Part shown: one piece after another, positions 12,549-62,960 of the stretch
Layout: each line of letters starts with the position of its first letter
Numbering within the stretch: the first letter of the stretch is position 1
Assembly (NCBI GenBank): GCA_025602905.1
Contig: JAHLKI010000006.1
Location: 186,001 to 250,000, forward strand
Length of the DNA: 64,000 bases
Direction: 5' to 3'
From: Phlyctochytrium arcticum
Taxonomy: Eukaryota > Chytridiomycota > Chytridiomycetes > Chytridiales > Chytridiaceae
Notes under the pieces: generated by a model
Databases searched by the model: none
Told to the model about the DNA's origin: nothing
Seen by the model: only the letters and a program-made list of their open reading frames with translations
Translations under genes and position numbers: made by a program

Positions 12549-13998
12549 ATGGATCCAATCGACGCGAACGGAAATTGGATAGGAGTGCCAGTTGAGCGGC
12601 CGTTGACGGAGCAACAGCAATGGCATACTGTGCTGGGAATTATTCTGCACATGTCAGCTGTGCTGCTGTCCATTCTCGGGGTTGCGGTATTCACATCTAC
12701 ACCAGACCTGCGGACAGGATCAACGCGATGGCATAATTGGATTATTTTTTACGTCTCATTTGGAGATTTTTGCTTGTGAGTTGTAAAACCCGATGGGCGA
12801 ATAACAAAGAGCAAAGTGACTGACTTCCTTTTTTCCGTATTCTAGAAATGTCTTACAAGCTGGGACTCTCATAGATATGAACGTCATGCAGAAATGGTAA
12901 GTTTACGTTTACGCAAAGCCAGATCGCGACACTGCGCAATCTTACATCCAATGTCATTTTAGGCGACATACTGAGGCCTGGTGCCAGTTCCAAGGCTACT
13001 TGTCCGTTACGGGAGGTTTCACCTCTATTTTGGGCTTGAGTCTGCTGACGCAGGAACGTGCTCATACCATCTTGATGAAGAAGACCTGGACCGGTCTCCA
13101 CACCGCCGTCGGGTTTGCGCTGTGTTGCACAATCGCTTTCGCCAATGTTGGGTTGTACTGGTGGGGCGGTAACATGATGGCAATACAGGAGTCGGGAGTC
13201 TACTGTGCTCCAGATTGTAAGTCAACGACAAACTATATTATTATGTTTTGCTGGACAAGGTTAATTGATCGACCAACAGGGGGCGGCGTTCTACGACCGC
13301 AACCATACCCGAAATTCAACAAGGCTCTGACCATCTTGAACGGCACGATAGTGACCATGTCTATTTTCCAACTCACGGGCATACATATTGCCATCTGGCT
13401 TACTGTGCTTGCTACGACGCGTCGCTTTACAACCAGAGACCCCAATGCAGGTACTCTGCACAACCTCAATAATGCACCCAAGAGTGGCAAATCCACCAAG
13501 AAGCCGCATGATACCCCAGTAAACGCAAAAAACTCTGTGGACTTCGGGGCTTCTGACCATCTTCCGGCAGTTATCTTTTCCAAGCTAGAGCAAGGTTGGT
13601 GTGGAACAAATCCTCAAACTTTGCTCAAGGGACGCTGACTTTTCTCGTTTTCCAGATGTCGCGCGGAAATGCGCAAAAATGGTGACAAGTTTTTTGATCC
13701 ACTGGGCACCCCATACCGCCAAAATGCTTCTGGTCAGCTTCACGCAGCGACCGACGACTGCGCAATTTGACTTGATTTCGTCCCTACTGGCTGTCGGCCC
13801 AGGTAACTTTTCTTGTGTCAGGCTACCTCATTGAGCGTAGCTATGTCCACTTTGACAACAGGAATTTCAAACCCGCTCATCAACTATGCGTTCGATGTCA
13901 AATGGCGAAATGGTGCTAAATGGCTCTTCACCCGAATTGGCTCGCAATGCAGCAAGGTATTTGCAACCATTTCAGGTGCCTTGAAATCAAGCGATTAG
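12549..13998 (+). CDS. Rhodopsin-like GPCR, array 1 copy A (intact)
   Basis: Six exons, 12549-12775, 12846-12896, 12963-13216, 13280-13594, 13656-13802 and 13862-13998, encode 376 residues with seven hydrophobic helices. Class A landmarks fall at the expected spacing. Asp73 in TM2 (S-F-G-D) matches 2.50. Cys100 opens TM3 (3.25), and exactly 25 residues later Arg125 sits at 3.50 in Q-E-R-A-H. Cys174 (V-Y-C) is the loop-2 disulfide partner. TM6 has H-W-A-P-H with Trp299 and Pro301. TM7 has N-P-L-I-N-Y from Asn335. Position 7.43 is Val, so it cannot bind retinal by a Schiff base. The third intracellular loop is ~75 residues and Lys/Ser-rich. Ligand and G protein partner are unknown. Confidence 0.8.
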
Positions 13999-14435
13999 TT
14001 TTTGAGGCTGTACAAAGTATATACCCAGCCGACAGTCCTAAACAATTTCTAAGCTGAGTAACAAATCTCGATATATTTCTTCATGTACAGTACTCGGAAA
14101 GCCTTCATTGTACTTCCTAAATGTATCCAGTCGATCTTCCCAAAGGTAGCTCAAGCCAAATACTATATTTCTTGTGTTTCTTCTGAGTCGCTTGCCAACA
14201 CAAGTGCTTGCAGGCATTCGAATGAAATATTTTCCCACGCATGTACGGCGCATTCATAGCAGCCCTATCTTGGTATAGCGAGATCAAATATATTACGTAT
14301 GCGGTGCGGCATTTTATACATCTTGACAAGATCCTTTACTCGAAAAATGGGAAGATATTACATCTGAAGAAACAGCTTGCCCTATCTCTAATGCATGGTT
14401 CGGTTATGCCTCCAGCCACCTGCGAGCAGATCGCA
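13999..14435. other. 3' flank of receptor A
   Basis: The first ~290 nt match the 3' flank of copy B (from 19047) clearly, including a shared TTTTCCCACGC element and the stretch after it. Similarity ends near 14285, which marks the edge of the duplicated unit or of the ankyrin-gene insertion. Confidence 0.6.
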
Positions 14436-15662
14436 TCAAATTGGGCACCTTGACTGTCGCAGACCCAGCGAATACTGGACGTCTGCAATGCCGCCGGCAA
14501 TAAGCACCTGCGCCGGCTCAGCAATATCCACATCACAGCGCGAAACAAGCAAATCCAACACAGACCACCGGGTGTCCGTCATGACATTGACATTTGCGCC
14601 GCGGTCAAGCAGCAGCTGCATGGCCTCTGCAATCGCGGCTGCGTCGCGCGGCTGCAGCGCAAGGAGATGCAGCGGCGCCAATCTCGGCCGGATGGTTCGC
14701 AACGCGACAGACATGGCAGCGGCGGTCTGGTTCGCCAGGTTGTGGAGGATGTCGTCTTGGGGCGCCCAGGCGTCTAGGGTTCTTGCGAGTGATGGGTCCA
14801 TGTCGAGCACGCGGCGGAGTAGCCGCAGCTGCGCGGGGAGGTTGGGCGTCCATCCCGTTCCAGCAGCGATGGCCGACAAAAGCGAGTCGCGCTCGTCCTT
14901 GCCCAGCCGTTGTTGCAAGCCTAGGGGTTGGTAATTCAGCATGAGGTCCGCAAGGTCTGCGCGGCCTTCCTTGCAGGCAAAGCGGAATGCGCTGGGAGGG
15001 GCATACGGGTCCGCGCCGGCCTTTAGTAGCAGCTCGGTAGCGGCGATGCCGTTGGTGTACAGCACCGCGTAGTGCAGCGTGGACAGCAGGCCCGGTCCGA
15101 ACGGGTATACGGTAGTCGCGCGACGGTCCGGCTGGGCACGGGACGCCAGGAGCAGGCGGATAGTGTCCAGCTGTGAGTACTTAACGGCGACGTGGAGAGG
15201 GGTTTCCCAATTAATGCCCTTTTGGTTCGGCTCTGTTTTTTCGAGACTCAGCAGCTTGGCCAAACGCTCAGTGTCGCCATGATACGCGGCAACGTGCAGC
15301 GGAAACGCGTCCGCGCGCTTGACGTAGAGCTTCACCATGTCATCAAAAGTTTCGTCACCGACCGATTCGAGATGCACCACTCGGACGCCGTCTTCAGGCC
15401 GGATATCATCGGACAAGACTTTCTTGCCGCCCACATCGGCATACGTGAAGCCAGTTTCGTCACCCGTGAAGCCAGTTGACGGGCCCCCGGCTTGCTTGCT
15501 GCTTGCGAAAGGGTCCAGGAGAAGCAACAGAATGAGCAGAAGGACGCTGGGAACGACGGGGTGGTTGTGCGTGAACTGCCTGACGTTTCGAAACAACTGA
15601 GCGAGTTGCTGTCCCAACGTCAGCCCCCGGGGCGTTTCCGGCGCTCCATCAGGGACGTCCAT
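14436..15662 (-). CDS. Ankyrin-repeat protein with one membrane helix
   Basis: An intronless minus-strand frame of 408 residues. Residues ~35-50 (P-S-V-L-L-L-I-L-L-L-L-L-D) form one membrane anchor. From ~115 on there are ankyrin repeats (F-P-L-H-V-A-A-Y-H-G, T-P-L-H-V-A-V-K-Y, L-L-L-K-A-G-A-D-P, L-L-L-D-R-G-A-N-V-N). The gene is visibly richer in G+C than the receptor genes on either side and has no introns, unlike most neighbours. It sits between receptor copies A and B in the opposite orientation, where the other copies have only spacer, so it looks inserted. The function is unknown; ankyrins bind proteins. Confidence 0.75.
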   Translation of the reverse strand: MDVPDGAPETPRGLTLGQQLAQLFRNVRQFTHNHPVVPSVLLLILLLLLDPFASSKQAGGPSTGFTGDETGFTYADVGGKKVLSDDIRPEDGVRVVHLESVGDETFDDMVKLYVKRADAFPLHVAAYHGDTERLAKLLSLEKTEPNQKGINWETPLHVAVKYSQLDTIRLLLASRAQPDRRATTVYPFGPGLLSTLHYAVLYTNGIAATELLLKAGADPYAPPSAFRFACKEGRADLADLMLNYQPLGLQQRLGKDERDSLLSAIAAGTGWTPNLPAQLRLLRRVLDMDPSLARTLDAWAPQDDILHNLANQTAAAMSVALRTIRPRLAPLHLLALQPRDAAAIAEAMQLLLDRGANVNVMTDTRWSVLDLLVSRCDVDIAEPAQVLIAGGIADVQYSLGLRQSRCPI

Positions 15663-15839
15663 GTAGGTAGACTTTGTAGTGGTGCGGTTTTGCTAGTACA
15701 GTACAGTAGTTGTTCAAGTGCTAGGTGCTAAATGAGTGCTGCACTCACCGTATGAACGGCATCAAATGGTGCACATGCGCCGCTTTGTTATGCTGAGGGT
15801 TTACTTCGAAGGGTGCTGAGGGTTTTACCCCGAAGTGTT

Positions 15840-16125
15840 GTCCCACATTTTTGCAGTGAATAGCATAATCGGAATTGACCGGAGGTGCATAGGGGATCCC
15901 AGGAATACCCGAAAGTATTTTTGGCTAGGCAACTTTTGCCAGCAGGGAATACCCTCAGAATATAAGTACCAATTCCGGTAACGGAAGGATTTATGACAAA
16001 GTGCCCTCAGAACATGGAGCCCCGACGGGGGGACTATAAATAGCTTGCTTAGTGCTGAAAGTTCAGCTCTATAAAGGCGTGTTGATAATAACCAGGTTGC
16101 TAGAGTTTGCGCTTAGGTCTAATTT
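15840..16125 (+). repeat. Receptor upstream module, copy 1
   Basis: This module contains a conserved CGGAATTGACCGGAGGTGCA segment, a stretch with 'cccgaa-tatttttggcta', 'accctca' motifs, and then TATAAATAGC at 16035-16044 followed by 'gtgctgaaagttcagctc'. Two more copies stand directly before receptor genes C and D (about 19630-20060 and 22320-22515). Here it precedes the duplicated questin-oxidase block rather than a receptor start, so it has been separated from its gene. Confidence 0.7.
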
Positions 16126-16169
16126 GGGGACGGCAAAATCTTGAATCCAATGGAGTGTCAAATTACAAA

Positions 16170-16510
16170 GACGGTTGATGACAATGCTCGAGGCAACATG
16201 GTAGAACTGGTAAGGTATTGACGATGGCAAGTGCTGCTCCTCGAAAGGCAAAGCAGGATGAACGACGCTGGGGTAGGATGGAAATGAGGGTGCACTTGAG
16301 CGGCTCTTGCTTCAAGCCCTCTCCATTATTGTCCTTCTTTTATACAGCTATGTATGGCAAGAGATTAGAAATGCTATTGGAAATGCCTGTAGGAAATGGC
16401 GTTGGGTCACTGGCAAATATATTTACGATGTTCAACTCACAAATCGAGGAATCAAAGAATCAAGATTAGACTTTATACAAATGAATACAAACAACTAATT
16501 ATACAAGAGC
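16170..16510 (-). pseudogene. Copied 5' end of the questin oxidase gene
   Basis: The sequence from 16170 follows 10933-11320 with many substitutions and small indels: start-codon region, upstream in-frame part and 5' flank. The body of the gene is missing. It is the left edge of the block that was duplicated with the small unknown gene and a receptor gene. It has no capacity to make the enzyme. Confidence 0.75.
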
Positions 16511-16589
16511 TAGACTAGATAGATTAAATATCAGAGGAAAAAGAACGAAACTACGGGCGACATATATGTCCAAGTGGAATAACGAGGAG

Positions 16590-17126
16590 GCTAATGATGA
16601 GATTCGATGGGAGTGATAGACCACTGCATGTATCGTACTAGTGCCATTCACGAGGTTCCGCCGTATTACTGTGATGCAAGTGTCGTTTGGAACTCGCCCA
16701 ACGGCTACTGTTCGTGCTAATGTGGAGGTACTGAGCACCAATGCCTTCTGCGCTCGTGCCGTGGCAAGCTGATCCTCGGAAGGAGGTGAAGACATGGTGT
16801 TTGTGATATAATTGTTTTGCAGTGAAAAAATTTCAGCATCGCATGCATTGTAGTGCTGAAGTCTTCCTGCGTAGCAAAAAACCGCTGGATACTGGATAAA
16901 ACAGGCATGGCCGGCGTTAAGACTGTCACTCCAAGTTGAGAGAGCGACGCTTCATAACGAAAAGGCCCTGCTGCCTCATCCGCCCAGTTGATCCCCAGAG
17001 GTCCCTCATAGCATGCTTGAAGGTGAATATGTCTTGATGTTTGTTGCGACTACTAATCAGCCTGCGAATGAGCTTGTCAAACATTCTGGACGTGGGGTCA
17101 GGCTTGACCCGGCATGCCTGGGCCAT
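16590..17126 (-). pseudogene. Decayed copy of the 191-residue unknown gene
   Basis: Co-linear with 11429-11980. The start and the first ~30 codons are recognisable, then indels shift the frame (one near 17025-17040, another near 16860), so the similarity is split over several short frames. It is therefore a pseudogene. Its presence dates the block duplication as old enough for decay, while DNA similarity is still easily seen by eye. Confidence 0.75.
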
Positions 17127-17494
17127 TCCTATTTTTTACGAGATGTGAACGGTGCAAAAACTTCATCTTTTGCCTTCCCCCATGGGAAAAAGGAGCTTTT
17201 TCCATGTTTCACTTAGTTCACCAAAGTTCCAAATGACGGAAGGCTGATTACAGAACTTTGGATACAATTCTTCCGGGGCTAAAAATACCGTTTAAGATGT
17301 TGTAATTTCCGGCTCAATGAATGCATGTTTATAATAACCAGCTTGCGGGAAATAAGGTTTGAGCTTATGCACGGCAAAATTTTGGATCAAATTGCCTTGA
17401 GTCGAATTCCCTAAATTTAGATAAGAACGGAGCAGTCATTATTAACATGAATGCAAATATTCCACGAAGCACTGAATAGAACAGGCAATGGAAA

Positions 17495-17560
17495 AGTGGT
17501 ACGGAGGCTTTTGACCTGCAGGTATTTTATAAAAGGGCGCAAACCACGTTCCCCCAGACC
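17495..17560 (+). promoter_or_regulatory. TATA box and promoter unit of receptor copy B
   Basis: One copy of the 'agtggtacggaggcttttga' unit is followed by TTTTATAAAAGGGCGCAA at about 17525-17542, ~45 nt before the start codon at 17581. It is nearly identical to the promoter of copy A. Confidence 0.6.
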
Positions 17561-17580
17561 TATCCAAAAAAAATCTGATA

Positions 17581-19046
17581 ATGAATCCAATCGATGCGAA
17601 CGGAAATTGGATAGGAGTGCCAGTTGAGAGGCCGCTAACCGAGCGCTAACCGAGCAACAGCAATGGCATATCGTGCTGGGAGTTATCCTGCACGCGCCAG
17701 CTATACTTTTGTCCATTCTTGGGGTTGCTGTCTTCGCGTCTACACCAGACCTGCGGACAGGATCAACGCGATGGCATAATTGGATCATTTTTTACGTCTC
17801 ATTTGGAGATTTTTGCTTGTGAGTAGTAAAACCCGGTCGGCGATTACAAAAGAGCAGAGTGACTGACTTCCTTTTTTGCGTGTTCCAGAAATGCCTTTCA
17901 AGACGGGACTTTGATAGATATGAATGTCATGCAAAAATGGTAAGTTCACGTTGAAACAAAACGCAGATCGCAAGACTATGCAGTCTTACATCCAATGTCA
18001 TTTTAGGCGACTTCCTGAGGCTTGGTGCCAGTTCCAAGGCTACTTGTCCGTTACGGGAGGGTTCAACTCTATCTTGGGCTTGAGTCTGCTGACTCAGGAA
18101 CGTGCTCACACCATCTTGATGAAAAAGACCTGGACCGGTCTCCATACCGCTGTCGGCTTTGCGCTGTGTTGCACAATCGCATTTTCGAACGTTGGGTTGT
18201 ACTGGTGGGGCGGTAACATGATGGCAGTACAAGAGTCGGGAGTCTACTGTGCTCCAGATTGTGGGTCAACGAAAAGCTACATCTTTACGTTTTCTGGAAA
18301 AGTTAATTGATCAACCAACAGGGGGCGGCGTTCTGCGACCGCAACCATACCCGAAATTCAACCAAGCTCTAACCATCTTGAACGGTATCATAGTGACCAT
18401 CTCTATTTTCCAACTTACGGGTATACATATTGCCATCTGGCTTACTGTGTGGGCTACGACGCGTCGCTTTACTACCAAAGACCCCAATGCAGGTACCCTG
18501 CACAAGCTCAATAATGCACCCAAGAGTGGCAAATCCATAAAGACGCCGCATGATACCCCAATAAACACAAATAACTCTGTGGAGTCCGCGGCTTGTGACC
18601 ATCTTCCGGCAGTTATCTTTTCCAAACTAGAGCAAGGTTGCTAGAACCAAATCTTCAAACTTTGCTCAAGGGAGGCTAACTTTCCTCGTTTTTCAGATGT
18701 CGCGCGCAAATGCGCAATAATGGTGACAAGCTTTTTGATCCACTGGGCACCCCATACCGCCAAAATGCTTATGGTTAGCTTCACGCAGCGACCGACGACT
18801 GCACAATTTGAATTGATTTCGTCCCTACTGGCTATCTTGCCAGGTAACTTTTCCCGTGTCACGCGACCGCATTGAGTACAGCTAATGTCCACCTTGAAAA
18901 CAGGAATTTCGAACCCACTTATTAACTACGCGTTCGATGTCAAATGGCGAAATGGTGCCAAACGGCTCTTCACCCGCATCGGCTCACAGTTCACCAAGGC
19001 ATTTTCAACCATTTCAGGTGCCTTTAAGTCAAAGTCAAGCGATTAG
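17581..19046 (+). pseudogene. Rhodopsin-like GPCR, array 1 copy B (frameshifted)
   Basis: Same six-exon layout as copy A: 17581-17818, 17889-17939, 18007-18260, 18322-18636, 18697-18843 and 18904-19046. Exon 1 is 238 nt against 227 in A, C and D because 'gagcgctaacc' is duplicated in tandem at about 17638-17660. Reading from the start codon hits TAA within the duplication, before TM1. No in-frame ATG upstream of TM2 rescues it. All later exons are open and retain the class A landmarks (E-R-A-H, H-W-A-P-H, N-P-L-I-N-Y). Intron 3 starts GTGGGT instead of GTAAGT. The lesion looks recent. A sequencing error is possible but would have to be an exact 11-nt tandem duplication. Confidence 0.78.
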
Positions 19047-20314: not shown

Positions 20315-21856
20315 ATGAATCCAATCGATGAGAATGGACATTGGATAGGAGAGCCCATGGAGAGGCCGCTAACCGAGCAACAGCAATGGCATATTGTGCT
20401 GGGCATTCTCTTGCACACCTCAGCTTTGCTGCTGTCCGTTCTTGGGGTTGCTGTATTCGCATCGACACCAGCCTTGCGGACCGGGTCAACGCAATGGCAT
20501 AATTGGATCATATGTTACATCTCCTGGGGGGATTTTTGCTTGTGAGTACCGAAATCCAATCGGAGGATACAAAAGAGCAGGTCAACCGAGTTCCTATTTT
20601 GCGTATTCCAGAAATTTCTTTCAAGCTGGGACTGTAATAGATATGGCATTCATGCAGAAATGGTGAGTTTACGTTCACGAAAACCCAAGATCGCAAGACT
20701 GCGCAATCTTACATTCAAATTCTTTCAACGTCATTTTAGGCGACATACTGAAGCCTGGTGCCAGTTCCAAGGCTACATGTCCATCATGGGAGGCTTGACG
20801 TCTATCTTGGGCTTGAGTCTGCTGACACAGGAACGTGCTCATACCATCTTGATGAGAAAGACCTGGACCGGTCTCTACACCGGTATCGGCATTGCGTTAT
20901 GTGCCACAATCGCACTCTAACGTTGCGCTGTATTGGTGGGGTGGGAACAAAATGGCAGTACAAGAGTCGGGGGTGTACTGTGGTCCAGATTGTAAGTCAA
21001 CGACGCGCCAAATTCTTTATTTTTGCTGGACGAAATTAACTGATCGACAAACAGGGGGCGGCATTCTGCGACCGCAGCCGTACCCGAAAGTCAACCAAGC
21101 TCTGACCATCTTAAACGGCATCATAGTGTTCACCTCTACTTTCCATCTTACGGGTATACATATTGCCATTTGGCTTTCCGTGCGGAATGCGGCGCGTCGC
21201 TTTGCCATTAAAGACACTTCTGGGAGTCTGACCCTCCACAAGCTTAATAATACACCTAAGAGTGTCAGCAAATCGAAGAGCAAGGTGTTTCTCGAGAGTT
21301 TAAGGAAATTGCCAAGCAAGGTGTTGCCCGAGAGTGTCAACAAATCGACAAGCAGGGAGGTTCTCGAGACTCCTCCAGTAGCCATAATTCACACCGTGGA
21401 GTCCGCGTCTCCTGACCATCTTCCGGCAGTTATCTTCTCCAAACTAGAGCAAGGTTGGTGTGAACCAAACCTTCATTTTTGTACAAAGGATGCTAACATT
21501 TCTCTTTTTCCAGATGTCGCACGGAAATGCGCAATTATGGTGACAAGCTTTTTGATCATCTGGGCACCCCATACCTATAAAGCACTTCTGGTAGGCTTCA
21601 CGCAACGACCGACGACTGCACAATTTGAAATGATCGGGTCCCTACTCGCTATCTGCCCAGGTACTTTTCTCGTGTCACGCTAGCGCATTGAGTACAGCTA
21701 ACGTGCGTGTTGACAACATGTATATCAAATCCACTTATCAACTATTTATTCGATCACCGTTGGCGAAATGGTGCCAAATCCCTCTTTACACGGATTGCGT
21801 CGCAATTTACCACCGAATTTGCAACCATTTCAGGCGCCTTCAAATCAAGCGATTAG
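20315..21856 (+). pseudogene. Rhodopsin-like GPCR, array 1 copy C (two lesions)
   Basis: Exons at 20315-20541, 20612-20662, 20740-20991, 21055-21453, 21514-21660 and a relic of exon 6 up to 21856. Exon 3 is 252 nt instead of 254: near 20917 two bases are missing relative to copy D, giving an immediate TAA at 20918-20920 in the TM4 region. The exon 6 acceptor is also destroyed: where A, B and D have ACAG, this copy has ACAT near 21716, and exon 6 contains further changes. Exon 4 is longer than in A by 84 nt through Lys/Ser-rich repeats in the third loop, as in D. Two independent lesions make this a pseudogene. Confidence 0.82.
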
Positions 21857-22776: not shown

Positions 22777-24282
22777 ATGAATTCAATAGATGAGAATGGA
22801 GATTGGATAGGAGAGCCCGTTGAGAGGCCGTTAACCGAGCAACAGCAATGGCATATTGTGCTGGGCATTCTCTTGCACACCTCAGCTTTGCTGTTGTCCG
22901 TTCTTGGGGTTGCTGTATTCGCATCTACATCAGACCTGCGGACGGGAACAACGCGATGGCATAACTGGATCATATTTTACGTCTCATTTGGAGATTTTTG
23001 CTTGTGAGTACCGAACCCCGATCGGCGAACAACGGAATACAAAAAAAGGAAATTGACTGACTTCCTTTGTTGCCCTAATCCAGAAATTCCTTTCAAGCTG
23101 GGACTGTAATAGATATGCAACTCATGCAGAAATGGTGAGTTCACGTTTGAACCAAGTGAAGATCGCGAGACTGCACAATCTTACTTTTAAAGTCATTTTT
23201 AGGCGACATACTGAGGCTTGGTGTCAGTTCCAAGGCTACATGTCCATTATGGGAGGCTACACGTCTATCTTGGGCTTGAGTCTGCTTACGCAGGAACGTG
23301 CTCACACCATCTTGATGAAGAAGACCTGGACCGCTCTCCACACCGGTGTTGGCATTGCTTTATGTGCCACAGTCGCGACCGTGAACGTTGCGCTATTCTG
23401 GTGGGGTGGGAACAAAATGGCAGTACAAGAGTCGGGGGTCTACTGTGGTCCAGATTGTAAGTTAACGACAAGCCATTTTTCTTTTTTTTTCTGGGCAAAG
23501 TTAATTGATCGACCAACAGGGGGCGGCATTCTGCGACCGCAACCATACCCAAAATTCAACCAAGCTCTGACCATCTTGAATGGTATCATAGTGGTAATCT
23601 CTACTTTCCATCTCACGGGTATACATATTGCCATCTGGCTTTCCGTGCGGAATACGGCGCGTCGCTTTACAACCAAAGACCCTTCTGGAAGTCTGACCCT
23701 GCACAAGCTTAATAATGCACCGAAGAGTGTTAGCAAATCGACAAGCAAGGTGTTTCTCGCGAGTCTCAGCAAATCGACAAGCAAGGTGTTGCCCGAGACT
23801 TCACAGATCACAAATCAGTCTATGGAGTCCGTGGCTCCCGACCATCTTCCGTCGGTTATCTTCTCCAAACTAGAGCAAGGTTGGTAGAAACGAATATTCA
23901 GACTTTGCTCAAGTGACTCTAACTTTTCTCGTTTTCCAGATGTCGCACGGAAATGCGCAATAATGGTGATAAGCTTTTTGATCATTTGGGCACCCCATAC
24001 CTCCAAAATGCTTCTGGTAAGCTTCACGCAACGACCGACGACGGCACAATTTGAAATGATCGGATCCCTACTCGCTATCTGCCCAGGTACTTTTCTCGTG
24101 TCACGCTACCGCATTGAGTATAGCTAACATGCGCGTCGACAACAGGAATATCAAATCCACTCATCAACTATGCGTTCGATCAGCGATGGCGCAATGGTGC
24201 TAAACGGCTCTTCACCCGAATCGCCTTTGCATTCACCAAGGCATCTGTAACCATTTCAGGAGCATTTAAATCAAGAAATTAG
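22777..24282 (+). CDS. Rhodopsin-like GPCR, array 1 copy D (intact)
   Basis: Six exons, 22777-23003, 23084-23134, 23203-23456, 23520-23879, 23940-24086 and 24146-24282, encode 391 residues. Exons 1, 2, 3, 5 and 6 have exactly the lengths seen in copy A; exon 4 is 45 nt longer because of Lys/Ser-rich repeats (S-K-S-T-S-K-V) in the third intracellular loop. All class A landmarks of A are kept: Asp in TM2, TM3 Cys, E-R-A-H, loop-2 Cys, W-A-P in TM6 and N-P-L-I-N-Y in TM7. Position 7.43 is Ile. Loop-2 and TM4-TM5 residues differ from A, so ligand preference may have diverged. This is one of only two intact genes in the array. Confidence 0.8.
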
Positions 24283-30530: not shown

Positions 30531-33500
30531 ATGCAAGCAAGTGTCACTACTACGACGGAAGAGTCAGTTACCAAAGTCCCACCTGTAGAGGACATCAAGA
30601 ACGTCTTTACCCTGTCCAGCTTGCAAAAGTTTGAATCAGGTCTTTTCCCGTCAAACGATAGCAGGTTGGAAAGCACCGAGGTTCCCGATACTGCAACTTC
30701 GGCTGCCCGTCAAAGCCCTCTACCGCCATCAGTGCAGATATCAGTATCGGTCTCGCAGTTAATAGCACAGCTGGGAATAGCAGCAGTTCGGCAGGCCGAC
30801 CTTCTGAGGACAAAGCAGGTCACGCATCTACAAAGTAGGCAACAAGAACAGCGAAAGCACCGCAAGCAAGCGGAACAAGCAGGCGCTTTGGAAAAACCAC
30901 CGCCGAATCCTACCCCAACCGCATTGGAGATCTTTGAACGTTTACTACGCCGAGCGCAGACTTCTGGTATCTTGCCAATGGACATCTCGGCCAATCTGCC
31001 TCCCCCCGCTCTCACCACATTGCAACCACCAGCAGCCGCGACGAATATCACAAATGCATCCCTTCCCACCCCGACCGCTGCGGCCGCTGCAACTCCAGCA
31101 GCAGCTGTAAGTTCTTCTATCCCCCCAACTGCTACTACGTCCGCTGAACGTACCGCGATCCCGGCTGGCACCAATGCGACATCCAATAGCACAAGCGGAT
31201 CATTCAAAGACACTAATGACGGTCTCAATGCCCTCAACTCCCCCAATGCAACGGTGTCTTCCATGAGTGGAGGCTCTCTTAGTGCAGCTACCGCTGGGAC
31301 ATCCAATAGCCCAAATGTATCATCCACATCCGATGAGGATATCTTCAATGCCCTCAAAGCCCTCACCGGAACTTTTCCTGTCGTGATTGGCAGCTCTGTC
31401 GGTGCAACCTCTGGTGCAATTGCCCCTGGGACATCCGCTACATCCGATCAGGATATTGACAATGCACTCAAGGCTTTCAATGCGACATTCCCTTCCGCAA
31501 ATGGCATCGCAACCACCCACACCACTCCCCCGGCTGTGTTATCCAGTACATTAAATGCAACCTCCAATGCCCCACATGCAACAACCCCTCCTGGTCTCCA
31601 TGCTACTGTACCTCTTGGTATAGGGGGGCCTTCGCCCAATGGAACGCACCTAGCGGCACCAGGTGGGACACATGCAACTCTAACACCCGGTACAAGCGCA
31701 TCACTACCCAACGGTACTGCTCCAGCAACACCCTTCTCGTCCAGTGCAAGTGCGCCTTTGCCTAATGGTTCAGCTTCAGCAGCTACAATTCCGGCTTTGG
31801 CTGCCAGTGCAAGTATGCATTTGCTAACTAATACCGCTCCTGGAACGCCCATGGGAGCACATGCAACCCTGCCTGCCAGTACAAATACACCATCCCTCAC
31901 TGATATAGCTTTGGCAATCCCTCCGGGTGTCCCTGCAACCCTGCCTGTCAGTGCGAGTGCACCTTTTCCCACTGGTACTGGTCCAGCAACGCCTTTGGTT
32001 GCACGTCCAACTACGCCTACCCTTGGAACCACGCTCTTTCACAATGCTAGGCCTCCAGTACCGCCATTTGTTGGACGTGCTACCACGCCTATACATGCAC
32101 CTGAGCTCGTTCCCACCGGTACAGCTCCAGTAACGCCTTCGGGTGGACCTGCTACCACGCCTATCCTTGCACCTGCGCTGTTTCCCACCGGTACAGCGCC
32201 AGTACCGCCTCTGGTTGCACGTGCTACCACTCCTATCGGTGCACCTGCGCTCGTCCCCACCAGTACAGCTCCAATAACGCCTTCTGGTGCAGGTGCTACC
32301 ACGCCTCTCCTTGCACCTGCGCTCCTTCCCACTGGTACAGCTCCAGTAGCCCCTTTGGGTGCACATGCTACCCCTCTAATCGGTGCACCTTCGCTTTTCC
32401 CCAAAGCTACAGCTCCAGTAACGCCTTCGGGTGGAGGTGCTACCGCGCCTACCCTTCCACCTGCGCTCGTTCCCACTGGTACAGGTCCAGTAACGCCATC
32501 GGGTGCTGCAAATACAGCCCCTCCTGCTGGTGCAAGTACATCGTTGCCAACAGGCATGGCTTCAGCAACGCCTACCGGAGCACATGCGAACCTCGCTGCC
32601 GGGGCAACAGCAGCCACTCCTGCTCCTGCCGCCAAACCGGCGGTGAATCCCAGCAGAAGTCTCATCTTAACGGACGAGGACATGTTAAGATTAACTCCGA
32701 CTCTGAACTGGCATAGGCGGTACAGTGGTGGGGATTTAAGGGTACGTGTTTGACCGTAATGTTTATGAGGGCATGTGATATTAACGATCATCTTTGGTCA
32801 CTCTAGGATGGTCACATTTTATCCTCGATGAACAAGGACGATGTAAGAAAGAAAATGACGTTTTGAGTGGATGTCATTTATAACGAACTTTTGCACACAT
32901 AGCTTCAGACAATCATTCGCTATCTGAACGCCAACAAACGCTTGTGCATCAAGGTTTCGGGCAATAAGGAGGAAGTTAGGCAGCGATTGCAGTCTGTTTT
33001 ATTTCCCAACTCCTCCGGATATGGAACACCCAAGTAGGCCGCGATTATATGTTCACTTGTGCCAGTTTTCTGACTCTTACACTCTGATAGGCACTCTCCC
33101 TCACCAACAATACCTCCAGCTTCGGCACTGACCATAATAGAGAAGGAAACGACAGAGAATCAGGAGCGAGCGTGGTATGTCTAAAGTTGAATCCGAAGAG
33201 CACAACAAAATGTCAAATATTGAACTCGCTTGTAGGAAAACGCTTTTCGCCACATTTCACTCTGAATTCGAATTTGTGGAGGAAGTTTGGTCTAAACGCT
33301 TTCTGCACCCGAACAGTACCAGGAAACAGTCAACACTTATCACCAATCTGGATCCGACGTCTATCACGAGATTACATGAGCTAACGACCACTCCCGAGCA
33401 TCGATTTTTGATATTTTTGTATTCCGATCAACATCGATCCTTCCTCTCCGAGGGAACGATACGCAGAGCATTTCAAATCAAAATAAACCATGCTAGGGTC

Positions 33501-45070: not shown

Positions 45071-46823
45071 CTAATTTTCCCCAACGACGCTGCCAACCAA
45101 GACATCAAACGAATCATCCGGCACTTGCCCCCGTACTCGAGTCCATTTCCTTGCCTCCCTCTCCAAAACCTCCCCAAAATCCAGCTTCATCTGCTCACAC
45201 CCCTCGCGCGAATAATCAACAAACATGGCCCCAAAGCGGCCGGATTCAGCTACCCCGCACAACATATACAGCAAAACGCCCGTTTGTCGTTTTGGCGTCC
45301 AGGCGAGATGGGAGCAGTGGGTATGCAGGATGTGGGGTATGTCACCTGGAGTAAAGACTTGGAAGGCGTCAGAGCCAAAGTGGTCCGACGTTTGATAGTA
45401 TTTTCCATGGAGGAGGTGGAGGGGAGGCATGGGGGATGGCACAGTGTGGATCGAGGTCAAGAGAAGGAGAGACATGAGAGGAATGGTCGTGCCCGTGACC
45501 CGGAGATTGATTTCCAGTGCGTAAAGGTCGTAAGCTGTTGCGTTAAGTTTATCACTGTCTCTGGGATTTGCGACAAAATCCACGCCAAAATGACCCACCA
45601 CCCCCTTTGCCGCCAAGACTGCTCCTATCCGCTGAATCGCCTGGTTGATCTCGGCTGCATATCCTTCATGAGCTGGAAGCCCACAGCCTGTATAATGCTG
45701 TCCGTCCATAATCTGCTCGTGAGTGGATAACACTGTCACGCGTCCTGTATCGGATATATGCACTTGCGCTGACGGAGTTGTCTGGCCTTTGTGAGTGGGT
45801 ATAAACGTCTCAAAGATGGCACCGATGGACGCGAGGGCGGCAGTGAATTGTGTGAATGGGTCTCTTTCATCCTCTGCATCTGATGAGGACGGTGACGCGT
45901 CAAATTCCATATTTTCCAGTGCTGTCCGGATGGATTGCTCCAGTGATGATCGACCCTCCCCCCGTGCTTCCAAAATCTCAGCTGCGCTACCTAAATCTAC
46001 TATCACGTTGCCCATTCCCGCAAATGATTCATCCAGTTTAATCATCCCTCGACAAGAAATTCCCTGTCCCGTTCTTTGTTGTTCCCGCATTACTTCCGCA
46101 ATTTTACTCACAAGGTCATCAATAGTTCGGACTGACTTGTAGGTGCCCACACAATGCCGGACCCCCGCCGAACGAAAACACTCTCTCGACCCCGATTTCG
46201 TGCCCCATCGCATACTTTCTGCCGACGCAGCGGGTAGAGTCAATCCCAAGACTCGAGCCACGCGATATTCAAACATGGTCCGACGATATACTTGCAACCG
46301 AGCCCGATTCGGCCTCACTAACGCTTTTATCCGGTTTAGCAGGCGGGGTCGACAGAGTAATTTCTGAGCAAGACAATACGGGGAAGAATCGTGCACCGAG
46401 AATAAAAACAGCCGGTTCCGTGCCGTTGATTGACTCGCGTCGGGGAGGAGGGAAAGTACATAATCGACAATCTCCGGATCGAGGGGCATGGAGGTAATGT
46501 AGATTATTCGAGTGGTGGGATGCGCGAGATGGAGAAGATGGAATAGGAGCCGCTCTTCATAATTGAGAACATGGTCAATCTTGCTCAGTTCAATGTTGTC
46601 AAATGTCAGCGAGGGAAGCACAATCAAATCTATAAAATGAATTCAGTTTTTCGCGTATAATGAAAGCTGATATGAATTTATAGGCCCAACCTTGATCTTC
46701 TTCCTCCCAATACTCTTTTAATGCATTCGTTGTTAATGTCGTCTGATGCTCCGTCCGGCCTTCATTTTCTCCAAAATTTTCCTGCAGTGATGCTTCCCCA
46801 TCGTGGTAGTCCCCGCGCATCAT
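45071..46823 (-). CDS. ATP-grasp protein related to PGM1-type peptide ligases
   Basis: Two exons on the minus strand, 46823-46691 and 46629-45071, encode 563 residues. The order of motifs matches bacterial 'peptide ligase PGM1-related' proteins: V-L-P-S-L-T near residue 50, N-Y-E-E-R-L-L-F, I-Y-I-T-S-M-P-L-D-P-E-I-V-D-Y, C-R-P-R-L-L-x-R-I, W-G-T-K-S-G-S-R-E-C-F, G-M-I-K-L-D-E-S-F-A-G-M-G-N and, in the ATP-grasp core, G-H-F-G-V-D-F-V with Y-A-L-E-I-N-L-R. The Mg2+/ATP-binding E-x-N pair is kept. Most relatives I know are bacterial, one of which ligates a peptide in pheganomycin synthesis; substrates elsewhere are unknown. The loop after E-I-N-L-R reads V-T-G-T-T-I-P, where bacterial proteins usually have G-G-T-T-H-P. 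Confidence 0.78.
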
Positions 46824-51924: not shown

Positions 51925-53429
51925 TCAGAACTCCAGGTCCTCTGGAGGGAGCATGGGTGGAGCGCCATGGTGCTGTCGTGGTAAGCTCTCGGGCACCCCC
52001 AGTTTTCGAGTCTGCTCGGGACCCATGGAATGCGACCCGCCAACAGCATGCAACGCTCTTGTTGAGTTGGCAGAAGATCGCGTAAATGACCCAGAAACCA
52101 GCGACTGGCTGTCCTTGGGTACTCTTCGGAAATATCTGCCAAGTCCCACAACCTCCACCCACACCTCCATCTCATCAAGCGCAGCAGCTCGCCAGTGTTG
52201 GTTCAGCGTCATGATAAGAATTGGGTTCATGAACGAAAACCCGTACATGTCGATGTACGCAGCATAGTCCACCCACACTGGAGGCGGCATTTGCAAAAAC
52301 ATGTGATACCCGATAGTGATATACATCGGAATCATGCAAAAGTAGGCGCAGGCAATGTATACCACAGCTTGCCGTGCCAGACGGAACGCGAGCTGACTGG
52401 TATCCTTGCGAATTCCCGTGTTGGCCGCTTTACGCACATTGGCAATGGACGCTGTGGGCTCAAAGGTGTGACTGGGAGACGGACCAGTCGCTGGCCCTTT
52501 AGATGATTTTGCGTTACGATCCAATGTGCCGTCTATCGCCATTTCGACCTTGTTACGCACGCCCATGAATGTGACATAGGTTCGCCAGTACATGAAGATG
52601 ATTCCAGTCACGTTTAGCGACAAGAAACTGAACCCGAGAACTCCTATTAGAGCACCGACCCAATCGCCACCGTTGGACCCTACACATGTAGCAATGTGTC
52701 AAATGACATTCTTAATGCCTTAAAAAAATACTTACATATTGGTTGGCAATACAAGCCTGAGGATGACATGCTCGCCATACGTCCAAAAACAAACTGTACG
52801 GACGCAATACTCAACGCCATCCCCCAAGTCCCCACTACCACAGTTCGGGCTTGGTGGTTCGTGGCTCGAAAGCGATGCACAATGGCGAGATACTGGTCAA
52901 ACATGAAGAGAAACAGGAATGATTGTCCGGCAACTCCCCATGCTCCAGCCGCGAATGCAATGAGTTGGCATGTATATTTCCCTATAGACAAACGTTTAGA
53001 AATTGTTTAGTGGTCGGCAATATGTAAAATGCGAACCTTGCCAGAAGTGGCCATAAAACAGCGAGGGTACGTGCCAGAACAGGAATGTTATAACTTGTTT
53101 GAACCGATCAACCATCACCAAACTGATAACAATGTATTTTGATGCCGTCCACTGCAATTTAGCAAACAGACTATCAAAAAACCATCCTGTACCAAGATGA
53201 AAAGCAACAAACGTACTGGCAAATGTCTGAGGAAAAATACACCGAGGGCAAAGGACACAATGGTGATAGATGTATACACTGCGGTCCATCGATATTGCAG
53301 CTCGGTCATCTTCCATGGCAAATAGTAGAATCCCTGCTGCATCCCGAGCGGTGGGTATTGGAAGTCATAGTACCCTTCTGCATCTGGTGGACCAACGGAT
53401 GTCGGTGGTTCATGTTCTTGGTAAATCAT
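51925..53429 (-). CDS. Rhodopsin-like GPCR, array 2 copy E
   Basis: Four exons on the minus strand, 53429-53217, 53151-53037, 52981-52736 and 52679-51925, encode 442 residues. It has seven membrane helices with class A landmarks: Asp in TM2 (V-M-V-D-R), Cys in Y-T-C-Q at 3.25, then D-Q-Y-L-A-I-V-H-R-F at 3.49-3.58 with Gln in place of the usual Arg, Trp in TM4 (G-T-W-G), loop-2 Cys (L-Y-C-Q-P), C-M-I-P in TM6 and N-P-I-L-I in TM7. There is no lysine at 7.43. The third loop (~75 residues) and the ~100-residue tail are Ser/Pro-rich. Exon 1 is 9 nt shorter than in the other copies. It is the most diverged copy and lies next to argJ, probably the founder position. Confidence 0.82.
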
Positions 53430-54301: not shown

Positions 54302-55836
54302 TCAGTTCTCCAAGTCCTGGTCCACTGGTGGGAGCATGGGTGGGGCGCCAGTGTGCTGTCGTGGTAAGCTCAGGTGCGGGAACCCCAGCTGTCGAGTTTG
54401 CTCCGGACCGACGGCATGCGATGCGCCGACCGCATGCGATGCTTTGGATGGATTGGCTGTCGATCGAGGCAACGACCCAGAAACCAAGAACTGGCTTTCC
54501 TTGGGTGTTCTTCGGAAAAACCGCCCAAGTCCCACAGCATCCGCCCACACCTCCATCTCATCAAGCGCAGCAGCTCGCCAGTGTTGGTTTAGCGTCATGA
54601 TAAGAATCGGGTTCATGAACGAAAACCCGTAGGTGCCAATGTACGAACCGTAGTCCACCCAAGGTGGAGGCGGCATTTGCATAAACATATGGTAGCCGAT
54701 CGAGACCCACATGGGAAGCATGCAAAAGTAAGCACAGCCAATGTATACCAGAGCTTGTCGTGCCAGACGGAACGCGAGCTGATCCGTATCCTTGCGCATT
54801 CCTGTGTTGGCCGCTTTACGCACACTGGTAATGGACGCTGTGGGCTCAAAGGTGTTATTGGAAGACGGACCAATCCCTCCACCCCGAGAAGATTTTCCGC
54901 CACGGTGCATTGACTCGCCCATCGCCGTTTCGACCTTGTTACGCACGGCCATGAATGTAGCATAGATTCGCCAGTACATGAAGATGATTCCGTTCACGTT
55001 CAGCCCCAAGAAACCAAACCCGAGAACTCCGACTAGAGCGCCCACCCAATCACCACCGTTGGACCCTACAGAAGTAGCAATTGGTCAATTTTTGGTGTGA
55101 TGGTATATTTAATGCCGTAAGAAATACTTACATAGCGGATGGCAATACAGGCCTGAAGGTGATAGCCCCGCCATACGCCCGAATATAAACTGTACGGTCG
55201 GTATACTCAACGCCATTCCCCAGGTCCCCAGTACCACAGTTCGGGCTTGGTGGTTGGTCGCTCGAAAGCGATGCACAATGGCAAGATACTGCTCCAACAT
55301 AAACAGAAACAGGAATGACTGGCCCGCAACTCCCCATGCTCCACCCGCGTATCCAATGAGTTGACAAGTGTATTGCCCTGTCGAAGATGTTAAAATGTCT
55401 TGTCAAGCAGTTGAAAAATAAAAATATATGCAAACCTTGCCAGAAGTGGCCAGTAAAAAGCGATGGCACATGCCAGAACACGAATGTTATAACTTGTTTG
55501 CACCGATCAACTACTACCAAACTGACGATAACGTATTTTGATGCCGTCCACTGCAAGTAAGAACACAGTTAGAAAAAAACACTCGCACCAACATGCAATA
55601 AAACAAAAACTTACTGGCATACGTCTGGCGGCGAAGACGAAAAAGACACCAAGGCAGAAGGAAACGATGGTGATTGCAGCGTAGACTGCGTTCCATCGAT
55701 ATTGTATATCGGTCAGCTTCCATGGCAAATAATACCATCCCTGCTGCATCCCCAACGGTGGATATTCGAAGTGATAGTACCCTTCTGCATCAGGTAGGCC
55801 AACGGACGCTGGTGGTTCACGCTCTTGGTAAATCAT
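54302..55836 (-). CDS. Rhodopsin-like GPCR, array 2 copy F
   Basis: Four exons, 55836-55615, 55550-55436, 55377-55132 and 55065-54302, encode 448 residues. Asp89 is at 2.50, Cys117 at 3.25 and, 25 residues on, Gln142 at 3.50 within E-Q-Y-L-A-I-V-H-R-F. The loop-2 cysteine (L-Y-C), TM6 C-M-L-P and TM7 N-P-I-L-I are present; 7.43 is Tyr. The tail has an extra H-A-V-G-A-S repeat. Exon 1 and the 3' ~300 nt are almost identical to copy G, while the middle differs more, which suggests a recent duplication or gene conversion between F and G. No lesion was found. Confidence 0.84.
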
Positions 55837-57435: not shown

Positions 57436-57679
57436 AACCTCTCAGAAGCTTTGTGAAAATTGCTGCGTATCTTGGAAATACGTCGCTTTCCATTTACAGG
57501 GGAGTCAGCGATTGCATATCTATAAAGAAGGTCTTTGGGAAGATGGTATGGCGTTTCGAGGTATATGCCGTTTTGCAGTAAAGGAGGATTGAGAGGCTGT
57601 TCATGCAAACAGAAGTAGCAGCTAGCTGGAAATGAGCTTCCCGATTCGATTGGTTTTTGACCCGAGAAATGAGGTTAGA

Positions 57680-59219
57680 TCAGTTCTCCAGGTCCGGGTC
57701 CACTGGAGGGAGCATGGGTGGGGCGCCAGTGTGCTGTCGTGGTAAGCTCAGGTGCGGGAACCCCAGCTGTCGAGTTTGCTCCGGACCGACGGCATGCGAT
57801 GCGCCGACCGCATGCGATGCTTTGGATGGATTGGCTGTCGATCGAGGCAACGACCCAGAAACCAAGAACTGGCTTTCCTTGGGTGCTCTTCGAAAATATC
57901 TGCCCAGTCCAACAACATCCGCCCACACCTCTATCTCATCAAGCGCAGCAGCTCGCCAGTGTTGGTTTAGTGTCATGATAAGAATTGGGTTCATGAACGA
58001 AAACCCGTAGGTGCCGATATACGAAATGTAGTCCATCCAAGCTGGAGGCGGCATTTGCATAAACATATGGTAGCCGATAGAGACCCACATGGGAAGCATG
58101 CAAAAGTAAGCACAGCCAATGTATACCAGAGCTTGTCGTGCCAGACGGAACGCAAGCTGATCCGTATCCTTGCGAATTCCCGTGTTAGCCGTTTTACGTG
58201 CATTGGAAATGGACGCTGTGGGCTCAAAGGTGTTACTAGGAGATGGACCAGTCGCCGCCCCACCCCGAGAAGATTTCCCGCCACGGTTCATTGAGTCATC
58301 CATCGCCATTTCGACCTTGTTACGCACGGCCATGAATGTAGCATAGATTCGCCAGTACATGAAGATGATTCCGTTCACGTTCAGTCCCAAGAACCCAAAC
58401 CCGAGAACTCCTACTAGAGCACCGACCCAATCACCACCGTTGGACCCTACACAAGTAGCAATTTGTCAGTCTTTTGGGTGATGGCATAGTTAGTGGTGCG
58501 AATACTTACATAGCGGTTGGCAATACAAGCCTGAGGGTGATAGCCCCGCCATACGCCCAAATATAAACTGTACCGCCGGTATACCCAATGCCATTCCCCA
58601 GGTCCCCAGTACCACAGTTCGGGCTTGGTGGTTGGTCGCTCGAAAGCGATGCACAATGGCAAGATACTGCTCCAACATAAACAGAAACAGGAATGACTGG
58701 CCCGCAACTCCCCATGCTCCACCCGCGTATCCGAGGATTTGGCACACCACCCTCCCTATCGACGATGTTTAGAAGTTTGGTCAAGTGGTTCAGAAATAAA
58801 GATAATGCAAACCTTGCCAAAAGTGGCCAGAAAACAGCGATGGCATATGCCAAAACAAAAATGTCACAACTTGTTTGCACCGATCAACTAACACCAAACT
58901 AACGATAACGTATTTTGATGCTGTCCACTGCAATTCAGTAAGAACAGAATTAGAAAAAAACACTCCTGTACCAACATGCAATGAAACAAGAACTTACTGG
59001 CATACGTCTGGCGGCGAAGACGAAAAAGACACCGAGGCAGAAGGAAACGATGGTGATTGCAGCGTAGACTGCGTTCCATCGATATTGTATATCGGTCAGC
59101 TTCCATGGCAAATAATACCATCCCTGCTGCATCCCCAACGGTGGATATTCGAAGTGATAGTACCCTTCTGCATCTGGCAGGCCAACGGACGCCGGTGGTT
59201 CCCGCTCTTGGTAAATCAT
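57680..59219 (-). CDS. Rhodopsin-like GPCR, array 2 copy G
   Basis: Four exons, 59219-58998, 58927-58813, 58755-58510 and 58446-57680, encode 449 residues. It has the same layout and landmarks as copy F (E-Q-Y-L-A-I, C-M-L-P, N-P-I-L-I). Exon 3 starts differently from the other copies: G-R-V-V-C-Q instead of G-Q/K-Y-T-C-Q, so the extracellular edge of TM3, often part of a ligand pocket, has changed while the 3.25 cysteine is kept. Its ends are almost identical to F. No lesion was found. Confidence 0.84.
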
Positions 59220-60744: not shown

Positions 60745-61030
60745 GCAGCTTTGTCCGCGCAGCGGGATATCCCTATTGACCGCAAAAATGGCAAGCTCTA
60801 TATCGGCCAACGACCTGCGCAGATTTAGGAGCAGGACAATATGAAGCTGAATATGAAGCGACCATGTGATTTTAGCCGTGAATATATCTCTATCAATGCG
60901 GACTATCGGAGTTTAAGTTCGCGTGTGAAACTTTTTTTTCATTTACCACCAAGTACCAAGTTCTCAACAATCGTTTTACATTTGACATTTGTATATTCTA
61001 TTATCTCTCAATTCTATTCATTCAATAATA
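60745..61030 (+). pseudogene. argJ 3' end relic, copy 2
   Basis: Scattered pieces of argJ exon 3 are in order: a remnant of the G-Y-S-G-I-P-V-D region near 60765-60815, 'cgcagattt-ggagcag' near 60820-60838, and the terminal segment at 60860-60915 encoding C-D-F-S-R-E-Y-I-S-I-N-A-D-Y-R-S with only a few changes. The 3' flank follows to about 61030. Large internal deletions make it non-functional. It lies 3' of receptor H, matching the argJ-receptor E arrangement. Confidence 0.78.
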
Positions 61031-61435
61031 TCCAGCTAAAGCGATTAGCTTGTAGTTATTGAAGTCCATGGATTTAATACTTTCCAGCTAATGCGATTAA
61101 CTCGTTACGACATCAATTCCACGGTTTTCCTCGTTACGACATTAAATCCACGGATTTAATAATGTCCAGCTATTTTCATCAGCGAACCTCTGGGAAGCTT
61201 GTGGCTTGATACAAAATGCTGCATTATTCTAAAGAATATGTTGGTTTCCCAAGTACAGAAGGAGTCAGCGGGAGACAACGGTTGCATATGTACACAGAAG
61301 GGCGGGAAGTTGGAAGGGCGTGGGGGATATGTATCGTTTTACAAGTACAGAAGGAGTGAGGCTTTGTTGATGCATAAAGAGCTAGCGTCAAGCTGGACTT
61401 GTCCACTCGACTAATTTTTGACGCTTGAAATGAGG

Positions 61436-62960
61436 TCAAGCCAGTGCTACCAGGTCCACCGGAGGGAGCATGGGTGGGGCGCCATGGTGCTGTCGTGGTA
61501 AGCTCTCGGGCGGGAATGCCAGTTTCCGATTCTGCTCGAGACCGACGGCATGCGACACTTTTGCTGAACTGGTTGTAGATTGAGGCAATGACCCAGAAAC
61601 CGAGAACTGGCTTTCCTTGGGTGCTCTTCGGAAATATCTGCCCAGTCCAACAACATCCGCCCATACCTCTATCTCATCAAGCGCAGCAGCTCGCCAGTGT
61701 TGGTTCAGCGTCATTATCAGAATTGGGTTCATAAACGAAAACCCGTAGGTGCCAATGTACGAAGCGTAGTCCATCCAAGCTGGAGGCGGCATTTGCATAA
61801 ACATATGATACCCGATAGAGATCCACATGGGGAACATGCAAAAGTAGGCGCTGCCAATGTATACCACAGCTTGTCGTGCCAGACGGAACGCGAGCTGATT
61901 CGTATCCTTGCGAATTCCCGTGTTGACCGTTTTACGTGCATTGATAATGGACGCTGTCGGTTCAAAGGAGTTACTAAGAGACTGGCCAGACGCCGCACCC
62001 TTGCCGGCTTTTGCGTTACGGTCCAATGTGCCCTCTATCGCCTCTTCGACCTTGTTACGCACGGCTATGAATGTGACATAGATTCGCCAGTACATGAAGA
62101 TGATTCCTTTCACGTTCAGCCCCAAGAACCCAAACCCGAGAACTCCGATTAGAGCACCCACCCAATCACCACCGTTGGACCCTACACAAATAGCAATTGG
62201 TCAATTTTTGGTGTGATGGCGTATTCAATGCCTTAAAAATATACTTACATAGCGGTTGGCAATACAAGCCAGAGGGGGATAGCCCTGCCATGCGCCCGAA
62301 TATAAACTGTACGGACGCCATACTCAATGACATTCCCCAGGTCCCCAGTACCACAGTTCGGGCTTGGTGGTTGGTAGCTCGAAAGCGATGCACAATGGCG
62401 AGATACTGCTCCATCATGAAGAGAAACAGGAAAGACTGGCCCGCAACTCCCCACGCTCCAGCTGCGAATCCGATGAGTTGGCACGTATATTGCCCTGCAG
62501 ACAAGAACGTTCAGAAAAAATGGTCTAATGGCTGGAAAATACATAAAATCCGAACCATGCCAGAAGTGGCCATAAAACAGCGATGGCATATGCCAGAAAA
62601 AGAATGTCACAACTTGTTTGAACCGATCAACCATCACCAAACTGATAACAATGTATTTTGATGCGGTCCACTGTAACCCAGCAAGAACATAATCAATAAA
62701 CCATCTTGTGCCAACATGAAATGAACAAGATAAACTACTGGCAAACGTCTGGCGGTGAAGAGGAAAAATATACCGAGGAAAAAGGAAACAATGGTGATTG
62801 CAGCGTAGACTGCGTTCCATCGATATTGTCGCTCGGTCAACTTCCATGGCAAATAATACCATCCCTGCTGCATCCCCAACGTTGGATATTCGAAGTGATA
62901 GTACCCTTCTGCATCTGGCAGGCCAACGGACGCCGGTGGTGCGTGCTCTTGGTATATCAT
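61436..62960 (-). CDS. Rhodopsin-like GPCR, array 2 copy H
   Basis: Four exons, 62960-62739, 62670-62556, 62494-62249 and 62181-61436, encode 442 residues. Landmarks are as in F and G: E-Q-Y-L-A-I-V-H-R-F with Gln at 3.50, loop-2 Cys, C-M-F-P in TM6 and N-P-I-L-I in TM7. The first intron begins GTAGTT rather than GTAAGT, a weaker donor. An in-frame upstream Met at 63032 exists, but the start at 62960 (M-I-Y-Q-E) is conserved in all four copies. The third loop resembles copy E (L-D-R-N-A-K) more than F and G, so H may descend from an E-like gene. No lesion was found. Confidence 0.83.

Follow-up and report, generated by a model that had tools for sequence, protein, structure and literature searches.

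What does a soil chytrid do with class A receptors, the class that animals use to sense hormones, odours and light? The question is raised by a stretch of 64,000 nucleotides from Phlyctochytrium arcticum (contig JAHLKI010000006.1, positions 186,001 to 250,000 of the forward strand, assembly GCA_025602905.1), referred to here as the window, in which two tandem arrays of seven-helix genes lie on opposite strands. Arrays 1 and 2 are class A (rhodopsin-like) G-protein-coupled receptors (GPCRs) of two sister families, termed family I and family II. The genes are of a known kind, rhodopsin-type receptors being already known in some fungi. NCBI places the species in Chytridiales; in a 2025 ITS2 tree it falls near Powellomyces in Spizellomycetales, and the same paper gives Triparticalcar arcticum as its present name (PMC11762872).

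Gene models and class A identity

Gene models were obtained by aligning the four copies of each array and splicing them at conserved borders, which are GT-AG throughout. Array 1 (plus strand, family I) holds four copies of six exons each, with introns of 59-80 bases in the two intact copies, c1 (12549-13998; exons 12549-12775, 12846-12896, 12963-13216, 13280-13594, 13656-13802 and 13862-13998; 376 amino acids) and c4 (22777-24282; exons 22777-23003, 23084-23134, 23203-23456, 23520-23879, 23940-24086 and 24146-24282; 391 amino acids). The other two are broken and were kept out of the spliced protein models: in c2 (17581-19043) a direct duplication of 11 bases (17633-17654) throws exon 1 out of frame, with the six-exon structure otherwise kept, and in c3 (20315-21853) two bases are deleted from exon 3 and the last acceptor no longer has its AG. 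In array 2 (minus strand, family II) all four copies are intact, each with four exons separated by introns of 55-70 bases: d1 (61436-62960; exons 62739-62960, 62556-62670, 62249-62494 and 61436-62181; 442 amino acids), d2 (57680-59219; exons 58998-59219, 58813-58927, 58510-58755 and 57680-58446; 449 amino acids), d3 (54302-55836; exons 55615-55836, 55436-55550, 55132-55377 and 54302-55065; 448 amino acids, 92% identical to d2) and d4 (51925-53429; exons 53217-53429, 53037-53151, 52736-52981 and 51925-52679; 442 amino acids). Four plus-strand and four minus-strand tandem copies had been claimed in a preliminary description of this DNA, and the aligned, spliced models bear this out, with exact agreement on the outer coordinates (the ATG of c1 at 12549 and that of d1 at 62960). 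The 'eight-gene' local expansion of that description stands as eight copies in the window, six of them intact (c1, c4 and d1 to d4) and two broken, but these are part of a genome-wide set.

Intron phases are 2,2,1,1,1 over the five introns of family I and 0,1,1 over the three of family II. A purpose-written spliced aligner reproduced the c1 protein exactly with c4 as the query and, using same-family queries, recovered the full family I pattern in five of seven further family I loci (c2 included), the exceptions being C32c, where the fifth intron is missing, and c3, where the last part is disturbed. The full family II pattern was found with the public protein P0003 as the query in all five non-remnant loci outside the window; when d2 was used instead, the aligner added spurious terminal introns at three family II loci. 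The d4 model is identical to public protein P0001 and the d1 model to P0002 except for one Gly at a splice border. The public annotation covers c2 and c3 only as pieces of 294 amino acids (P0009, from transmembrane helix (TM) 3 on) and 222 amino acids (P0011), and no full-length public model of c1, c4, d2 or d3 was present among the 14 proteins returned by homology searches.

The Pfam scan of the receptors took in c1, c4, d1, d2 and d4. The 7tm_1 profile scored above its curated cut-off in all five (41.2-75.6 bits against 30.5), with E-values of 1.8e-10 (c1), 3e-11 (c4), 4.2e-17 (d4), 3.1e-18 (d1) and 5.6e-21 (d2), so that the resemblance lies far beyond chance. An AlphaFold2 model of P0002 (d1) displays the seven-helix class A bundle, helix 8 included, and the best matches are class A both by sequence and by fold. 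A profile search of the spliced proteins and a comparison of the predicted structure with class A receptors had both been proposed in the preliminary description, and both uphold its assignment of the genes to rhodopsin-like seven-helix GPCRs; the alternatives that it named did not materialise, Git3 falling below cut-off and microbial rhodopsins being absent among the matches listed. An NCBIfam scan of the four array-2 members gave no match.

Class A landmarks were located by aligning profiles that include the relatives to rhodopsin, the residue position numbers being read by eye from those alignments. The features noticed earlier recur in both arrays, namely Asp 2.50, Cys 3.25 and the Cys of the second extracellular loop (ECL2) that is its disulphide partner, an x-x-P motif in TM6 (I/H-W-A-P in array 1, C-M-x-P in array 2) and N7.49-P7.50 in TM7, and the Trp of TM4 (W4.50) is indeed limited to array 2. 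An acidic residue at 3.49 lies exactly 24 residues after C3.25 in all six intact copies. The charged motif ascribed to 3.49-3.51 holds for array 1 (E-R-A), but array 2 has E/D-Q-Y and lacks the arginine. Position 6.48 is Trp in family I and Met in all four array-2 copies, and Tyr 7.53 is found in neither array (NPLINY, with Asn at 7.53, in array 1; NPILI, with Ile, in array 2); outside the window, the TM7 Pro has been lost in three family II paralogues (C24, C6:84k and C6:87k).

The best PDB sequence matches of the broader profiles were opsins, and chytrid members of this receptor class have been termed type II rhodopsins (PMC5410147, PMC9616733), as would be expected if the window genes coded for light receptors of the kind ('type II opsin-like') that has been suggested to exist in chytrids. 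Such an identity is nevertheless highly improbable and type II opsins are strongly disfavoured: the Lys at 7.43 that forms the Schiff base with retinal is missing from the 21 of 23 sequence rows in which this position was read, all six intact window genes included, and the residues found there are Tyr, Phe, His, Val, Ile, Leu or Ser. It is this lysine that singles out the one Spizellomyces punctatus candidate (PMC5410147). Not every fungal 7tm_1 gene should therefore be taken for a light receptor, no row read having the retinal lysine.

Placement outside class A, among the cAMP-receptor-like or Git3-like fungal seven-helix proteins, is less credible still. It could draw on the weak matches that Git3 gave with d1 (E 0.003) and d2 (E 0.0014) and on the position given by Krishnan et al. 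to the cAMP receptor family, next to class A (PMC3251606). However, the Git3 scores of 17.9 and 19.0 bits fall short of the cut-off of 24.2, and Git3 was not listed up to E 1 in the other three of the five proteins scanned; Dicty_CAR was not listed up to E 1 in any of the five, in a search whose HMMER filters drop most matches above E of about 0.1, whereas 7tm_1 exceeded its cut-off in each. The sole Dicty_CAR match in the genome lies on contig C1, far from the arrays.

Pattern scans with tblastn confirmation, seeded on one or two short patterns, gave no sign of a viral or bacterial origin: in viral contigs none of 49 pattern matches for A3 and none of 29 for A4 were confirmed, and in bacterial and archaeal genomes, where the scan covered A3, none of five. 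When the d1 model was compared with a viral structure library using Foldseek, class A-like receptors of soil giant viruses, poxviruses and herpesviruses were retrieved (best E 5.7e-8), a likeness of shared fold only. The top matches include class A-like proteins annotated in the soil giant viruses Edafosvirus, Solumvirus and Harvfovirus.

Two sister families and their expansion

The two arrays had been described as separate families, and they do differ in exon structure and sequence, four family I rows having an identity of only 14-17% to P0001. The families are nonetheless not unrelated, since their profiles match over 330 columns (E 5e-14, profile against profile) and one intron position is shared within a common ECL2 motif, YC-x-P-x-W. 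The third intron splits the Trp codon of this motif as T|GG in all six intact window copies, at the same place and in the same phase in c1 (intron 13217-13279, plus strand) and in d1 (intron 62182-62248, minus strand), 13 bases after the start of the Cys codon in each. In every other locus of the two families, a remnant on contig C16 apart, the aligner set a phase-1 intron at the corresponding residue; at C24 it dropped four residues next to this intron. By our own estimate, the chance of one shared intron position is about 0.013 (3 x 5 over approximately 1170 positions, splice-site bias being ignored). Another class A-like gene, L004 (G000:C24:381114-384767), has the loop-2 motif YC-x-P-P-W with no intron there, so the ECL2-Trp intron may mark families I and II only.

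Only the best candidates were scored in the genome, and the locus counts are thus lower bounds. At least nine loci belong to family I: besides the four window copies there are a tandem group of four on contig C32 (26.0-35.2 kb) and a single locus at C6:865 kb. Over the aligned span four of the nine are free of frameshifts and stops, and five are broken. Family II has at least ten loci, namely the four window copies, a tandem pair at C6:84-89 kb, single loci on C3, C24 and C42, and the remnant on C16; six are without lesions and four carry them. The second family I tandem array (G000:C32:26001-35221; L060, L056, L041 and L051) consists of two copies without lesions and two broken ones, and public protein P0008 looks like an annotation fusion of two of them. 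Further 7tm_1 matches occur at eight other places in the genome, three of them over the cut-off.

A tree was calculated from 23 rows, nine from each family and, in addition, five proteins of Spizellomyces and Powellomyces. It does not contain the C16 remnant, nor P0001-P0003 and P0006-P0011, whose loci were already represented by other rows. The P. arcticum rows of each family form one group (support 100/99 and 98/95), and the window arrays are clades, array 2 at 100/100 and array 1 at 93/90, the latter below the program's starred level. Family I members were found by homology searches in Spizellomyces and Powellomyces and family II members in Spizellomyces, and both families are thus older than the P. 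arcticum-specific expansion. Scoring in each of the three homology searches was limited to the 8000 candidates with the most shared words, which makes the absence of other species from their results weak evidence; a search with a merged two-family profile returned three proteins only, all already known. In P. arcticum, both families expanded by tandem duplication with frequent copy loss, and the window clusters arose by recent local expansion.

The duplication behind c1 and c2 also covered 1.4-1.5 kb of upstream sequence. The stretch 10934-12390 recurs at 75% identity at 16171-17528, before c2, which indicates that the end of a questin-oxidase-like gene upstream of c1 (9587-11178, minus strand) and the stretch before c1 were copied together with the receptor gene.

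Divergence, signalling and probable role

We hold it to be probable, though by no means assured, that the class A GPCRs of arrays 1 and 2 serve to sense external chemicals; the preliminary description had suggested such a role, with zoospore taxis as its example. The indirect signs are the lineage-specific tandem expansion with loss and a divergence of the outer TM halves in family I only. All 12 within-group pairs have a ratio of nonsynonymous to synonymous rates (dN/dS, NG86) of 0.22-0.41; the three pairs among d2, C3 and C6:87k give no ratio because dS is saturated. Within family I, the ratio of nonsynonymous to synonymous differences per site (pN/pS) is 0.54 in the outer TM halves against 0.23 in the inner, with 55/92 against 31/98 variable sites (p 0.00015), and the c1-c4 pair alone gives 27/96 against 13/98 (p 0.013). 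Raw counts for array 2 are 36/109 outer against 20/105 inner variable sites (p 0.03), or 52/181 against 26/138 when loops and helix 8 are added (p 0.051). The outer/inner split was devised after a region test with hand-set borders had shown conserved loops and variable intracellular parts; the family I TM borders were likewise set by hand, and the p values are uncorrected.

Several points weigh against a chemosensory role. The ligand-side divergence of array 2 fades after synonymous correction (pN/pS 0.31 outer, 0.26 inner); the extracellular loops and N-terminus rank with the best-conserved regions of both families (pN/pS 0.27 and 0.28), and the third intracellular loop (ICL3) and the C-terminal tail with the most variable (0.43-0.73); no site class with pN/pS above 1 was found in the region analysis; and class A receptors in general, whether chemosensory or of another kind, would be expected to conserve their inner half. 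The replacement at position 3.50 considered below could mean weak or no G-protein coupling in array 2, and the link of the receptors to the zoospore is one that we purely infer. The conserved outer face and divergent inner tails of array 2 (pN/pS 0.27 in extracellular parts, 0.73 in ICL3 and 0.43 in the C-terminal tail), together with its second intracellular loop (ICL2), in which 10/10 residues are unchanged across the four copies while synonymous sites moved (pS 0.167), would suit receptors for a self-made signal, such as a mating, aggregation or sporulation peptide or metabolite, with one ligand and copies differing in dose, timing or intracellular regulation. We consider this unlikely, although conceivable: a conserved receptor of that kind would not usually show a lineage-specific copy number or so many broken copies, and family I diverges on the ligand side.

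Arg 3.50 of the D/ERY motif, a class A hallmark to which exceptions are known and the contact for G-alpha in other class A receptors, is kept in array 1 and replaced by Gln in all four array-2 copies. The seven other family II rows that reach this position, five P. arcticum loci and two from Spizellomyces, all have Arg, which together with the tree indicates one change on the branch to array 2. This contrast, along with Met for W6.48 and Ile for Tyr 7.53, might be read as the mark of decoy receptors or co-receptors that no longer activate G proteins; we regard that as improbable, as the invariance of ICL2 (0/10 variable) and the constraint on the inner TM halves (pN/pS 0.26) look like those of a signalling face in use, and fungal class A members are reported as NPXXX, without Tyr 7.53 (PMC3251606). 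Array 2, a young clade of four genes with Gln beside seven relatives with Arg, thus offers a natural experiment on the need for Arg 3.50.

Under the chemosensory explanation, the intact receptors would sit in the plasma membrane with a short N-terminus outside, and their outer helix halves, covered by an ECL2 lid, would take up between them a ligand that is small, soluble and other than retinal. Judging from the receptor class, the chain would run from ligand to receptor to G protein, the latter being one of the heterotrimeric G proteins of the fungus itself, in whose genome four strong G-alpha loci were found. The most likely job would be the sensing of chemicals outside the cell, for example by the zoospore or young germling, most likely with a division of labour in which the binding preferences of the family I copies have diverged and the array-2 copies retain an almost uniform outer face and have in common a changed signalling end (Gln 3.50). 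Only tentatively do we propose the joint picture of a fungal counterpart of an animal chemoreceptor family, with about two dozen class A loci largely derived from tandem birth and death, family I diversifying on the ligand side, and array 2 forming a young Gln 3.50 clade that still signals via a modified G-protein contact or another transducer. To our knowledge, no receptors guiding chytrid zoospores to food or hosts have been identified. The clusters offer a handle on how swimming fungal spores sense their surroundings, and their intact, exactly delimited genes, in the same order as the laboratory chytrid Spizellomyces, are suited to deorphanisation and knock-out.

Neighbouring genes and comparison with known receptors

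An ankyrin-repeat gene (14436-15689, minus strand; Ank_2 E 3.3e-20) lies inside array 1 between c1 and c2, in the opposite direction. Elsewhere in the window are genes for an IQCH-like ATP-grasp protein (45071-46639, minus strand) and a CCDC34-like protein (2614-3774, minus strand), proteins of these two kinds being linked to cilia or sperm tails in animals, and repeats at 31862-32534 and 43266-43930 within two large open frames (742 and 762 amino acids), for which no Pfam match was obtained at E 0.001. Class C (7tm_3) receptors are plentiful in the genome, with 35 exon matches, three of them in a row at G000:C12:403199-411624.

That a few rhodopsin-like genes had been reported in chytrids, as stated in the preliminary description, is correct but understated: 12 fungal rhodopsin-family genes were known in three species in 2012, eight of them in S. 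punctatus (Krishnan et al., PMC3251606), a type II rhodopsin-like GPCR has been described in a range of zoosporic fungi (PMC9616733), and a 2025 scheme groups 984 fungal sequences, concentrated in Entomophthoromycotina, as 'Class 15' (PMC12842992). The P. arcticum arrays were described in none of the titles and abstracts searched, a coverage outside which most subscription papers lie, and the excerpt from PMC8887899 makes no mention of GPCRs. As far as the literature searched shows, the shared ECL2 intron, the scale and arrangement of the genes in P. arcticum and the Gln 3.50 clade are new.

With the set of Krishnan et al. (PMC3251606), compared by description, the receptors share 7tm_1, the Asp in TM2, the acidic 3.49, the loop cysteines, a TM7 NP without Tyr and chytrid hosts, the motifs there being written ERY and NPXXX; P. 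arcticum differs in its many copies within one species (at least 19 loci in two families), its tandem arrays and Gln 3.50. The 'type 2 opsin' SPPG_00350 of S. punctatus, from the order Spizellomycetales, resembles them in its ERY, disulphide pair and TM7 NPVLF, which also occurs in the family II relative P0005, but by description it has the retinal lysine, unlike the window genes and the relatives read (PMC5410147). A large fungal 7tm_1 expansion is likewise present in Entomophthora muscae (99 genes), a member of a distant fungal group; the authors of that study list these genes under light-sensitive domains (PMC10515909). Animal class A receptors (for example opsins, orexin and glycoprotein-hormone receptors) have in common with those of P. 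arcticum the seven-helix fold, D2.50, the pair of C3.25 and ECL2 Cys, the TM6 Pro and the TM7 NP, at 10-19% identity in the structural alignments listed, whereas the P. arcticum receptors are set apart by the lack of the NPxxY Tyr, an altered E/DRY and the fungal ECL2 motif YC-x-P-x-W.

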